From: Mugil cephalus
Lineage: Eukaryota; Chordata; Actinopteri; Mugiliformes; Mugilidae
Length of the DNA: 64,000 nucleotides
Reading direction: 5' to 3'
Assembly: GCF_022458985.1 (NCBI RefSeq)
Contig: NC_061781.1
Location: 11,869,501 to 11,933,500, forward strand
Positions 8,779 to 23,811 of the stretch are shown piece by piece (the stretch's first letter is position 1; each line of letters starts with the position of its first letter). Below the pieces are notes generated by a model. The model ran no database searches. It was not told the DNA's origin and saw only the letters and a list, made by a program, of their open reading frames with translations. The position numbers and the translations under genes are program-made.

Positions 8779-11700
8779 TTAATATTCCTCGCCTTCCTCA
8801 TCATCTTCAAATGAATCGATGCCCACTTCTTCATAATCCTTCTCCAGGGCTGCCATGTCTTCTCTGGCCTCTGAGAACTCTCCTTCCTCCATTCCCTCTC
8901 CAACATACCAGTGGACAAAGGCTCTCTTGGCGTACATGAGGTCAAACTTGTGGTCAAGCCTGGCCCAGGCCTCAGCGATGGCTGTGGTGTTGCTCAGCAT
9001 GCACACAGCTCTCTGCACCTTGGCCAGGTCTCCACCAGGAACCACAGTTGGAGGCTGGTAGTTGATACCCACCTTGAAGCCTGTAGGACACCAGTCCACA
9101 AACTGGATGCTACGTTTGGTCTTGATGGCAGCAATGGCCACATTGACATCTTTGGGCACCACATCACCACGATATAGCAGACAGCAGGCCATGTATTTGC
9201 CATGACGTGGATCACACTTCACCATCTGATTGGCTGGCTCAAAGCAGGAGTTAGTGATCTCAGCAACAGACAGCTGCTCGTGGTAGGCTTTCTCAGCTGA
9301 GATGACCGGGGCGTAGGTGGCCAGAGGGAAGTGGATACGAGGGTAGGGCACCAAGTTGGTCTGGAACTCTGTCAGATCAACATTCAGGGCTCCATCAAAG
9401 CGAAGTGAAGCTGTGATGGATGAGACTATCTGGCTGATTAGGCGGTTGAGATTGGTGTAGGATGGACGTTCAATGTCGAGGTTTCTGCGACAGATGTCAT
9501 AGATGGCCTCATTGTCCACCATGAAGGCACAGTCAGAGTGCTCCAATGTGGTGTGGGTGGTGAGGATGGAGTTATAAGGCTCCACTACGGCTGTGGAAAC
9601 CTGAGGAGCTGGATAGATAGCAAACTCTAGCTTAGACTTTTTGCCAAAGTCTACAGACAGTCTCTCCATGAGCAGGGAGGTGAAACCAGAGCCGGTGCCT
9701 CCACCGAAGGAGTGGAAGACCAAGAATCCTTGGAGACCAGTGCACTGATCAGCCTGTAAATATAAAAACAATCAGAAAGGATGGCAAAACCATACTAACA
9801 AATCAAATCATTGGTTTGAGAGAATCTTCTTCTGCTCAGATTACAGATAAGTGTTGATCCCGCCAAGGCCTCCAGCCTAGGGTTACACAGACATTTAATT
9901 TGTCTTCTTTTCTGTAGAATACTTATGAGCGTCTGTGACTGTAAATAGAATGAATAGATGTAGTTGGTTCTGAATGTGATTTGAACTATTGATTGACTGA
10001 CTATGTAAAATAAATTTTCAAGTTAAATAAAAACTTCAAGTGATTCACCAATTTACGGATCCTGTCCAGAACAGAGTCAATGATCTCTTTGCCAATGGTG
10101 TAGTGTCCACGGGCGTAGTTGTTAGCCGCATCCTCTTTTCCTGAGATCAGCTGCTCAGGGTGGAAGAGTTGACGGTAAGTTCCTGTTCGCACTTCATCTG
10201 GGGAATCAAAAGAACAACAGGTGAGAATACCAATTCATCTGTGAGAGGGGTAAAAAAATTAACAAGTTCCGCATTTCAATGCTACTGACCAATGACTGTG
10301 GGCTCCAGGTCGACAAAGATTGCTCTGGGGACATACTTCCCCGCTCCAGTCTCACTGAAGAAGGTGGTGAAGGAGTCATCATGGCCACCAATGGGCTTGT
10401 TGCTCGGCATTTGGCCGTCCGGCTGGATGCCATGCTCCAGACAGTAGAGCTCCCAGCAGGTGTTCCCCATCTGGACACCAGCCTGGCCGACGTGGACAGA
10501 GATGCATTCACGCTGCAGGAGAAGGAAGAAGGGAGAGGAGCAGGGGAGGTGGTAAAAGGACATACAAATTATTCCACATGATCAAATTCTTACACATAAA
10601 AACTATGGCTACCAGAATCTGATGGAGCCATTCACAAACTCAGCCACTAGGTGGAAGCAACGAGATACACGAGAGAAAGAGGGTTGAAGGTGAAAGAGCA
10701 AGCAAAACAACTTTACTGCAGCTGTCACTGGATCTCATGTGACTGCAGTCATGAGCTCAGATGTTGTTCATGAGCTGAAATGGAGTTTGAGTTCAGAGAA
10801 CTACTGAGCACTTGAAATTATGCTATAAAGATGATCTGAACAAAAACAAACCAGGCAAGAACAAACCTCCCAAGTCCATTTAAACTTAATATTGTGCTGT
10901 AAAGAAGTTTGACTTTAGACATTCTCGCTGACACTTCAAATGGGTTAAAATGGAAATGTAAAAACTAGTTCATACATATTATATATAGCATATGATACTT
11001 ACTGGAGCTCAGTTTATGACAATTGTTGTCCTTAAGAAAATTTGTCATCAGTGTTTCTTCCTTGTGAGGAAACAACTGGACTGTGGTCATTTACTATCAC
11101 TATTGTATATTTTTACTCAGCATTATATATTCATATTATTAAATAACTTAAATATCTTTCACTGGACACTGAACCTCCCATAGGATAAATAAGGTATCTA
11201 CCTATCTATCTTTATACAATGGTTGTAGTCCCTTTAATTAATTTAATTAATTTAATTTATTTAGTAGCGGATCCTTTTAGGTTATATTGCCATTACCATT
11301 GATTTAATATTATTTTACAACAATCTGATCATTGCTGGATCGCTAAACCACCGCTCTCTAACGTCATCAGAGGTCACAGAGCAGTGACAACCTGTCACAT
11401 ATGGTTGCCAGCCTGGCTCACGGTGGGTGGCTATTTTTACATTGCCCCCGACTTTCTCCTTCTCAATGTTCAGAAAGTGGGCGAAGGATGTGGGTCAATG
11501 GGTGGGAGTGCAGTTACCCTGTATCATTTTCTTTAGAATCTGTTAAATCTTTGCGATACATTTCATTGTATATGCTTCAGTATATTCTATGCCTCAACCA
11601 TACTTCAACAAAGATGACTCCCTGCAGACGTGTCTGGGTTTCCAGGTCAGCAGAGCTCTGGGCAGCAGTTATTTTGGGTTTCTTGCGCTAACCTGACACC

Positions 11701-21147: not shown

Positions 21148-23811
21148 ATGGTGAGTAACTGCTTGCCTGATGACGTTGCCTTGAAATTCCATTCTGTCTT
21201 CCTCCCATCTGCTGTTCTTTGTCTTTGTTTCCTAGGCTTTATGTGGATTAAATATCTAAACCTTTTTAATGCTCGCCACGCCTCGGCTGTGAGACTGAAG
21301 GCTGCTAACATAAAAGCAGCTTTATCCTTTCTTCTGATTGATAGTCATTTGCACCTGAATTTATGTAAATAAATTTTTAGAGCGCGTCTGTTGAGGATTC
21401 AGGGAGAAATAGATTGGAATGGTTACACATGATGAGTCATTTCTGTACCAGTGGACAATCTAGGTCAGACAGATACTTGTTGGGCCGCTTTGTCATTTTC
21501 ACTTGTTTGATACGCAGCTTGTGACAAAGCAGAACACATATAAAACAAAACAAAAAAAAAACCTAAGATCAGACTCTTGATAATGTTTTTGTTTAGGAAT
21601 TATGGCTTTCCTTTTCTTAGAGGGAGAGAGCAGGGTAATCGTGGCAGTAGGGGGATGGAGGACAGGAACAGAGAAAGAAGGAGTGGTCTGGCCTAGGCAG
21701 TCCAAGTTAGTTGGAAGCCATTTTGCAGCTGTTAGGAGTTTTTGGACTGGGGGACGTGGAGAGAGGGAGAGAGGGAGGGAGAGGGAGAGGGAGAGAGCGA
21801 GACATCCCTGACTGTTACAGCACTGTGCAGCTGGACAGGATGGGGGAGGAGAGAGAGGCACAATAGGGGAGGGGATGAGGAAAGGGAGGAGATGCAGGAT
21901 GGAGAAGTGGGGGGAAGGATTTTTTCTATCACACTGGGGCAGGGCCTTCCTGTCTGCCACACACAGCAGCTATATGTTGCATTCTTTGGACAATTTATAA
22001 AACTCTCGTAGACAGTTTAAAAAAAAGGCTTTCAATTATGTGTCATCTGAAACTACATTTTCCTGCCTAGTGATTCTACGATAACAACCCACAGTACAAA
22101 GCAAAGACAGATGCTTGTGGACAGTGAATGTATTGTATGTCTCACAAATTATTGGTTGTCTGTCTTTTTAACAGTCTCCCTTTCCCTTCTTTTTCAGCGT
22201 GAATGTATTTCAATGCACGTCGGCCAAGCCGGAGCCCAGATGGGCAATGCATGCTGGGAGCTGTATTGTCTGGAACATGGGATCCAGCCAGATGGACAGA
22301 TGCCCTCGGACAAGACTATTGGAGGAGGAGATGACTCCTTCAATACCTTCTTCAGTGAGACTGGGGCAGGAAAGCATGTTCCCAGAGCCATCTTTGTCGA
22401 CCTGGAACCTACTGTCATCGGTCAGTAGACTGTTAATGAACAACTTACTCTGACTATTTAAGTATTTTTGAACCCTTTTTACCTAAAGTATTAGAGCAAA
22501 TATAATAAGTAGAACACGATTCTTCTAAATTCTTTATTTAAGGATACTTGGTCTTAATCTAATTTTTATATTGTCTATTTTACAGATGAGGTGCGTACAG
22601 GAACTTACCGTCAGCTGTTCCACCCTGAACAGCTGATTACAGGAAAGGAGGATGCTGCCAACAACTACGCTCGTGGACACTACACCATCGGCAAGGAGAT
22701 CATTGATCTTGTTTTAGACAGGACTCGTAAACTGGTAAGAGATCTGTCTTGATTGTGTGTTGGAGAAAGTTGGAACTTCGTTTATGTGAGTTGAGGGTGA
22801 TATTAATAAATTGCAACCATGTGTTCCTTTCAGGCTGATCAGTGCACTGGCCTGCAGGGCTTCCTGATCTTCCACTCTTTTGGTGGAGGCACCGGCTCTG
22901 GTTTCACCTCCCTGCTCATGGAGAGACTATCTGTCGATTATGGCAAAAAATCTAAACTTGAATTTGCCGTCTACCCAGCCCCTCAGGTTTCCACAGCTGT
23001 AGTGGAGCCTTACAACTCCATCCTGACCACCCACACCACCTTGGAGCACTCTGACTGTGCCTTCATGGTGGACAATGAGGCCATCTATGACATCTGTCGC
23101 AGAAACCTCGACATTGAGAGACCAACCTACACCAACTTGAACAGGCTCATTGGCCAGATTGTGTCTTCAATCACGGCTTCACTTCGCTTTGATGGAGCCC
23201 TGAATGTTGATCTGACAGAGTTCCAGACCAACTTGGTGCCCTACCCTCGTATCCACTTCCCTCTGGCCACCTACGCCCCGGTCATCTCAGCTGAGAAAGC
23301 CTACCACGAGCAGCTGTCTGTTGCTGACATCACCAATGCCTGCTTTGAGCCGGCCAATCAGATGGTGAAGTGCGACCCACGTCATGGCAAATACATGGCC
23401 TGTTGTCTGCTGTATCGTGGTGACGTGGTGCCCAAAGATGTCAACTCTGCTATCGCTGCCATCAAGACCAAACGCACTATCCAGTTCGTGGACTGGTGTC
23501 CCACAGGCTTCAAGGTGGGTATCAACTACCAGCCTCCAACTGTGGTTCCTGGTGGAGACCTGGCCAAGGTGCAGAGAGCTGTGTGCATGCTGAGCAACAC
23601 CACAGCCATCGCTGAGGCCTGGGCCAGGCTTGACCACAAGTTTGACCTCATGTACGCCAAGAGAGCCTTTGTCCACTGGTATGTTGGAGAGGGAATGGAG
23701 GAAGGAGAGTTCTCAGAGGCCAGAGAAGACATGGCAGCCCTGGAGAAGGATTATGAAGAAGTGGGCACCGACAGCTTGGGAGACGAAGATGAAGAAGGAG
23801 AGGAGTACTGA
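21148..23811 (+). CDS. alpha-tubulin 3 (complete)
   Basis: Exons are 21148-21150 (ATG alone, followed by GTGAGT), 22198-22420, 22586-22734 and 22834-23811, giving 450 aa. The sequence is a canonical alpha-tubulin: MREC start, [11 protein letters not shown] with Lys40, GGGTGSG at 142-148, and tail [16 protein letters not shown] with terminal Tyr. [12 protein letters not shown] and LIGQIVSS set it apart from the TUBA4A-type copy and unite it with tubulin 2. The 1.05 kb first intron carries a GA-rich tract. AATAAA at 23907-23912 is 95 nt past the stop. It lies between tubulin 2 and dnajb2 in the same direction, and the orthologue name is uncertain (tuba8-like or tuba1-like in other fish annotations). 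Confidence 0.94.
21756..21803 (+). repeat. GA-rich tract in tubulin 3 intron 1
   Basis: Purine-only GAGA/GGGA tract, mirrored on the other strand as CT repeats. Confidence 0.8.

Follow-up and report, generated by a model that had tools for sequence, protein, structure and literature searches.

Conversion between head-to-head paralogs is a mechanism already known from mammals, where CYP1A1 and CYP1A2, arranged head-to-head and 23 kb apart in human, have undergone it within the first 500 bp of exon 2 as well as in exon 5 (PMC3199271), and concerted evolution of tubulin paralogs has been described for the tandem beta-tubulins of Leishmania (PMC1533823). The human counterpart of the locus studied here, at 2q35, has the order STK16-TUBA4A-TUBA4B-DNAJB2-PTPRN-...-DES (PMC11818634); its TUBA4B is listed as a derived copy of TUBA3E that carries a frameshift and is 241 amino acids long (PMC8872073, Table 1), and is also counted among the human isoforms (PMC6116153). 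Proteins named TUBA4B, which may or may not be the same gene, appear in proteomics tables for chicken (PMC5640664) and Xenopus (PMC4222900). We analysed 64,000 nucleotides of the fish Mugil cephalus (NC_061781.1, positions 11,869,501 to 11,933,500; hereafter the window), located on contig C12 of a 24-contig, 635 Mb genome. We are fairly confident that the window contains a teleost TUBA4 locus, in which a TUBA4A gene (T1, minus strand) stands head-to-head with two intact sister genes (T2 and T3, plus strand) and exon 4 has undergone gene conversion among all three.

The three alpha-tubulin genes lie within positions 8779..23811 of the window and are complete, with four exons each, the first of which holds only the ATG. 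T1 is read on the minus strand from exon 1 (13806..13808, donor GTGAGT) through exon 2 (10290..10512) and exon 3 (10049..10197) to exon 4 with the stop codon (8779..9753), which encodes a TUBA4A-type C-terminus plus a tyrosine. On the plus strand follow T2 (17790..19696; exons 17790-17792, 18056-18278, 18476-18624 and 18722-19696) and T3 (21148..23811; exons 21148-21150, 22198-22420, 22586-22734 and 22834-23811). The marks of a functional alpha-tubulin are present in every one of them: a full-length frame with a single stop codon (449 amino acids in T1, 449 in T2 and 450 in T3), canonical splicing (GT-AG borders in 9 of 9 introns), Lys40 and Glu254. TATA boxes stand about 79 bp 5' of the T2 ATG (17709..17718, plus strand) and about 82 bp 5' of the T3 ATG (21064..21073, plus strand), and no TATA[AT]A occurs in the 400 bp upstream of the ATG of T1. 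A first-pass annotation of this DNA had proposed two full-length plus-strand genes, each with an ATG-only exon, intact splice sites and a TATA box, and the assembled T2 and T3 agree with it on each of these points; it had made no claim of a TATA box for T1. The ratio of nonsynonymous to synonymous divergence (dN/dS) over codons 1-410 is 0.078 for T2-T3, 0.084 for T1-T2 and 0.075 for T1-T3, and T2 and T3 are two intact genes under purifying selection. Because of these intact frames and this selection, all three would be ordinary working alpha-tubulin genes, presumably expressed and functional.

Silent divergence between T1 and its opposite-strand neighbours falls steeply along the gene. At four-fold degenerate sites, T1 and T2 differ at 27/46 sites in codons 2-125, 19/55 in codons 126-240, 4/48 in codons 241-340 and 0/33 in codons 341-410, with corresponding values of 23/48, 17/54, 5/49 and 1/33 for T1 and T3 (codons after 410 were excluded because of a frameshift in C1a, one of the genes on contig C1). 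Likewise, the synonymous divergence (dS) of T1-T2 drops from 1.18 in codons 1-125 to 0.10 in codons 241-410. Expressed as fractions of four-fold sites, T1 is about equally distant from T2/T3 and from the unlinked alpha-tubulins in exons 2-3 (0.48-0.59), and nearly identical to T2/T3 in codons 241-410 (0.00-0.10). Its divergence from the five TUBA1-type genes of contig C1 and the single gene of contig C7 is 0.40-0.59 in all segments, and that from three genes on contig C23 is 0.30-0.58, dropping toward the 3' end to 0.30. Across the four segments, the GC content at third codon positions of T1 stays within 0.59-0.67; base composition is not the cause of the exon 4 likeness.

The likeness is also distributed in long tracts. 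T1 (minus) is identical to T3 (plus) over 265 nt (8820..9084 and 23503..23767, respectively) and over 152 nt (9260..9411 and 23176..23327), while T2 (plus) is identical to T1 (minus) over 123 nt (19079..19201 and 9274-9396) and over 221 nt (19376..19596 and 8879-9099). The longest exact runs between opposite-strand genes are thus 221 nt for T1-T2 and 265 nt for T1-T3; when window genes were paired with C1b or C23a, members of the C1 and C23 groups, none of the five pairs checked had an exact run of at least 60 nt. Permuting the 237 silent polymorphic codons (5000 shuffles; 13 of 66 gene pairs tested) gave the same picture: identical silent codons run for up to 31 in T1-T2 and up to 30 in T1-T3, lengths reached in 0/5000 permutations, and both pairs qualify as converted. 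In ten other pairs the longest run was reached in at least 196/5000 permutations, the lowest values being those of T3-C23a (196) and T1-C1b (280). The patchiness of the resemblance between T1 and T2/T3 exceeds chance, and much of exon 4 has been exchanged among T1, T2 and T3 by gene conversion, the 5' exons and the tails not, or far less. Because of this exchange, a whole-gene tree, the check put forward by the first-pass annotation, would be misleading: it would cluster the window genes by exon 4 regardless of their history, and we dropped it as evidence of orthology. Of our results, conversion between inverted and tandem genes is better supported and more useful than orthology with TUBA4B.

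The 5' part, by DNA, places T2 and T3 together. In trees of 12 of the at least 13 alpha-tubulin loci of the genome (neither trees nor counts include the divergent locus at C1:8431262-8434258), the two are sisters by DNA, with support 98/96 in exons 2-3 and 99/97 in codons 2-141, and the stretch alignable between them extends through introns 2 and 3; this sisterhood and these introns show that the duplication was local. The first-pass annotation had gone further and suggested a functional ancestral TUBA4B that was tandemly duplicated: this picture is by and large a sensible one, in which the duplication stands and the link to TUBA4B is one of position and orientation. A tie between T1 and the other two is hinted at by the intron-2 donor GTCAGTAG, which is common to T1, T2 and T3, the 9 of 9 other alpha genes compared having GTAA.

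The assignment of T1 draws on its locus and its C-terminus. T1 lies beside DNAJB2, PTPRN (named by eye) and DES, as a TUBA4A gene should, and T2 and T3, as plus-strand alpha-tubulins between a TUBA4A-type gene and DNAJB2, occupy the position of TUBA4B. The best PDB match of the last 125 amino acids of T1 is human TUBA4A (8ixf, 267.4 bits), followed by 1z2b (265.6 bits), which has the same tail and is labelled alpha chain, and TUBA1C (264.4 bits); two short tail queries gave no match at the threshold used. The 8ixf tail GIDSYEDEDEGEE aligns to that of T1 but ends at EE, before the tyrosine, while T1 ends EEY with an encoded final tyrosine that is absent from human TUBA4A. The lack of an encoded C-terminal tyrosine, a trait of human TUBA4A, is thus not a property of T1, and it may not characterise the TUBA4A family as a whole. 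By locus and C-terminus, T1 reads as a TUBA4A-type gene. In zebrafish, tuba8l2 has been described as the single orthologue of TUBA4A (PMC10921936) and is likely the counterpart of T1; the excerpt of that paper is silent on plus-strand neighbours.

The nearest relatives of T2 and T3, judged by Thr122, Ile137 and a GTDSxG tail, are three tandem alpha-tubulins on contig C23 (C23:15244512-15253904). Both residues are shared by T2, T3 and the C23 trio and are absent from T1, the C1 genes and the C7 gene, and the tail has the same five carriers. T3 and C23a have 2 differences in their first 430 residues and differ at 0.33-0.50 of four-fold sites. C23 also holds a second PTPRN-DES block, 1.2 Mb away from its tubulins, and C12 and C23 most plausibly go back to the teleost genome duplication. 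The presence of T2/T3-type genes on the contig with this second block suggests that the T2/T3 type probably predates that duplication; the C23 genes would either be copies moved away from the TUBA4B position or represent an old locus of their own. Within the C23 trio, exon 4 is nearly identical and exons 2-3 are less so, with a drop of divergence along the gene comparable to that in the window; the run test for C23a-C23b, the sole C23 pair tested, was not significant (1060 and 519 of 5000).

Several observations weigh against our interpretation. With regard to conversion, the window genes and those of C23 are least divergent at silent sites at the 3' end (0.30-0.33, versus 0.43-0.58 in exons 2-3), a trend shared by T2 and T3 and one for which we have no explanation, and the signal for T2-T3 is weaker (longest run reached in 342/5000 permutations, sum of squares in 35/5000), so that this pair qualifies on summed squares only. 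With regard to ancestry, T1 is left unplaced by the 5' part, the group T1+T2+T3 having support of 57/14 in exons 2-3 and 63/20 in codons 2-141, where a grouping of T2/T3 with C23 is not rejected (approximately unbiased test, p 0.46). As for isotype, the margin of TUBA4A at the C-terminus of T1 is small, and the first 125 amino acids are not closest to TUBA4A (8ixf, 243.0 bits, versus 245.7 for the TUBA1A chain 8ixa, which likewise has six extra residues here); over this part, the PDB comparison did not separate the isotypes. Orthology of T2 and T3 with human TUBA4B is suggested by position and orientation, which are the only evidence for it. Finally, the C23 tubulins are flanked not by PTPRN and DES but by an FHL2/3-type gene, identified as FHL2 by eye, and a gene of BIN1 type, whose best match is Myc box-dependent-interacting protein 1. 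A home locus elsewhere for the relatives of T2 and T3 was what the first-pass annotation had named as telling against its proposal, and the placement of the C23 genes between FHL2- and BIN1-type genes is in part such a case. The closest second FHL2 copy is on C12, and the 20 kb upstream of it contain neither BIN1 nor tubulin sequence.

This placement leads to the alternative that T2 and T3 are TUBA3-like genes that arrived at the site and do not descend from TUBA4B, their true home being the FHL2-BIN1 interval, where three were kept on C23. Human FHL2 and BIN1 lie on 2q12-2q14, at no great distance from TUBA3D/E, in agreement with such an origin. The Thr122, Ile137 and tail features common to the C23 genes and T2/T3 speak for it, as do Ala170 and Gly232, which PDB TUBA3 chains have in common with T2, and a tree of protein residues 1-141, where T3 groups with C23a (85/84, the best fork of a tree in which no fork was starred). 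However, the combination of Ala170 and Gly232 is also present in chains catalogued as alpha-1 and as plain alpha, and TUBA1-type chains carry Gly232 and Ile137, so that these residues may be ancestral; the second PTPRN-DES block on C23 allows the C23 cluster to be a displaced duplicate; and the odd intron-2 donor unites T1 with T2 and T3. Moreover, the listing of TUBA4B itself as a frameshifted TUBA3E copy (PMC8872073) makes TUBA3 likeness something to expect of TUBA4B, and agrees with TUBA4B being no mere copy of TUBA4A. We regard an arrival from elsewhere as possible but doubtful; on our reading, T2 and T3 would share their ancestral gene with human TUBA4B.

Could T1, T2 and T3 simply be young duplicates of one gene, with exon 4 showing their true age and exons 2-3 evolving fast? 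Overall identity to T1 is indeed high (413/440 amino acids for T2, 418/440 for T3), but the fall in silent divergence along the gene has no parallel between T1 and the C1 or C7 genes, and the similarity of T1 to T2/T3 ends with the coding sequence and scarcely enters the introns (short extensions at exon ends), no other non-coding similarity having been found; we consider this explanation very improbable. Near-identical paralogs are sometimes mis-assembled, but the copying of one sequence into another during assembly is just as hard to credit as the source of the exon 4 tracts, since those of T1-T2 and T1-T3 are short (77-265 nt), interspersed with differing sites and unlike between pairs.

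Returning to conversion at a TUBA4 locus, the findings suggest the following sequence of events. Local tandem duplication gave rise to T2 and T3, with their TATA promoters, and the long uninterrupted exon 4 provides a substrate for ectopic gene conversion, opposite-strand pairs included. Conversion would then keep much of exon 4 uniform, while the 5' exons, C-terminal tails and promoters would have escaped it and carry the gene-specific features. Compared with CYP1A1/CYP1A2, this is another gene family, in which the partners number three, including a tandem pair, and conversion affects the last coding exon; compared with the protist beta-tubulins of Leishmania, these are vertebrate alpha-tubulins in an inverted plus tandem arrangement. 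No account of an intact TUBA4B or of conversion at this locus was found among the literature matches listed, with subscription literature mostly outside them, and the excerpt of PMC3098192 held nothing on synteny.

The comparison with human 2q35 combines likeness and difference. The order TUBA4A, TUBA4B, DNAJB2, PTPRN, DES (PMC11818634) is common to both, as is the TUBA4A-type C-terminus of T1. The differences are that the position of the 241-residue, frameshifted human TUBA4B (PMC8872073) is occupied in the fish by two intact genes of 449-450 amino acids, that T1 has the terminal tyrosine lacking in human TUBA4A, and that the left neighbour is unlike. A position that holds a tubulin pseudogene in human can thus be occupied by intact genes in a fish, which makes the human pseudogene probably a loss and not a copy dead on arrival. 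In addition, exon 4 conversion may distort alpha-tubulin trees built on whole coding sequences, a caveat that bears on the naming of fish isotypes and on choosing the right gene when TUBA4A disease is modelled in fish. As a more speculative extension, which we think improbable, the divergent TUBA4A/TUBA4B pair could be an ancient conversion unit, with the plus-strand gene as the long-standing exon 4 partner of TUBA4A and the human decay having ended the exchange. If so, the rate of silent-site divergence in exon 4 of TUBA4A should differ between lineages with and without an intact TUBA4B, and the minus/plus layout, which a TUBA1-type cluster on C1 shares, should be older than the early vertebrate genome duplications.

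The genes to the right of T3 define the synteny. DNAJB2 (26606..29601, plus strand), a synteny marker, was recognised by its DnaJ domain. The minus-strand gene at about 37643..49445 is one that we take to be PTPRN from its exon sequence, the single exon tried giving no Pfam match; between 42314 and 49445 it has five minus-strand open frames with counterparts in the DNA directly upstream of the second desmin gene on C23, these matches being minus-strand ones with 48-68% identity over 19-50 residues. The coding part of the first exon of DES (59569..60144, plus strand) has Filament head and rod domains and a second copy on C23. A minus-strand TUBA4A-type gene head-to-head with plus-strand tubulins and followed by DNAJB2 (plus), PTPRN (minus) and DES (plus) is what the first-pass annotation had described, and the arrangement is confirmed. 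It had also equated order and strands with those of human 2q35; the strands of the human genes presumably do match. The order DNAJB2-PTPRN-DES agrees with that in human (PMC11818634), on one side of the tubulins: the left neighbour of T1 is an O-fucosyltransferase gene (PF10250) and not STK16, so that synteny with human is seen on one side only. DNAJB2 was seemingly retained on C12 only: its C-terminal half was matched on C12 only among the 40 matches listed, which include none on C23, and none was found in 20 kb beside the second desmin (C23:14045918-14065917).

A protein search of the genome found at least 13 alpha-tubulin loci, with three each on C12 and C23, one on C7 and, on C1, five TUBA1-type genes and a divergent one. 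The TUBA1-type cluster at C1:6090639-6109457 also has a head-to-head layout, with one gene on the minus and three on the plus strand and, on one flank, a PMEL-like gene (PKD domain; named by eye). We considered this cluster as a duplicate of the TUBA4 locus and ruled it out by the PMEL-like flank, the absence of any window open frame from its two flanks and the TUBA1-type tails. One of its members, C1a (C1:6090639-6092169, minus strand, TUBA1-type), has a frameshift near codon 411 that leaves the normal C-terminus out of frame, the mark of either a decaying gene or an assembly error. The divergent C1:8431262-8434258 locus has 54% identity to T1 over its exon 2 match and an interrupted exon 4. 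The tail of the alpha-tubulin at C7:18605683-18607218 ends in EE without an encoded tyrosine, like human TUBA4A, and this gene groups with the TUBA1-type genes.

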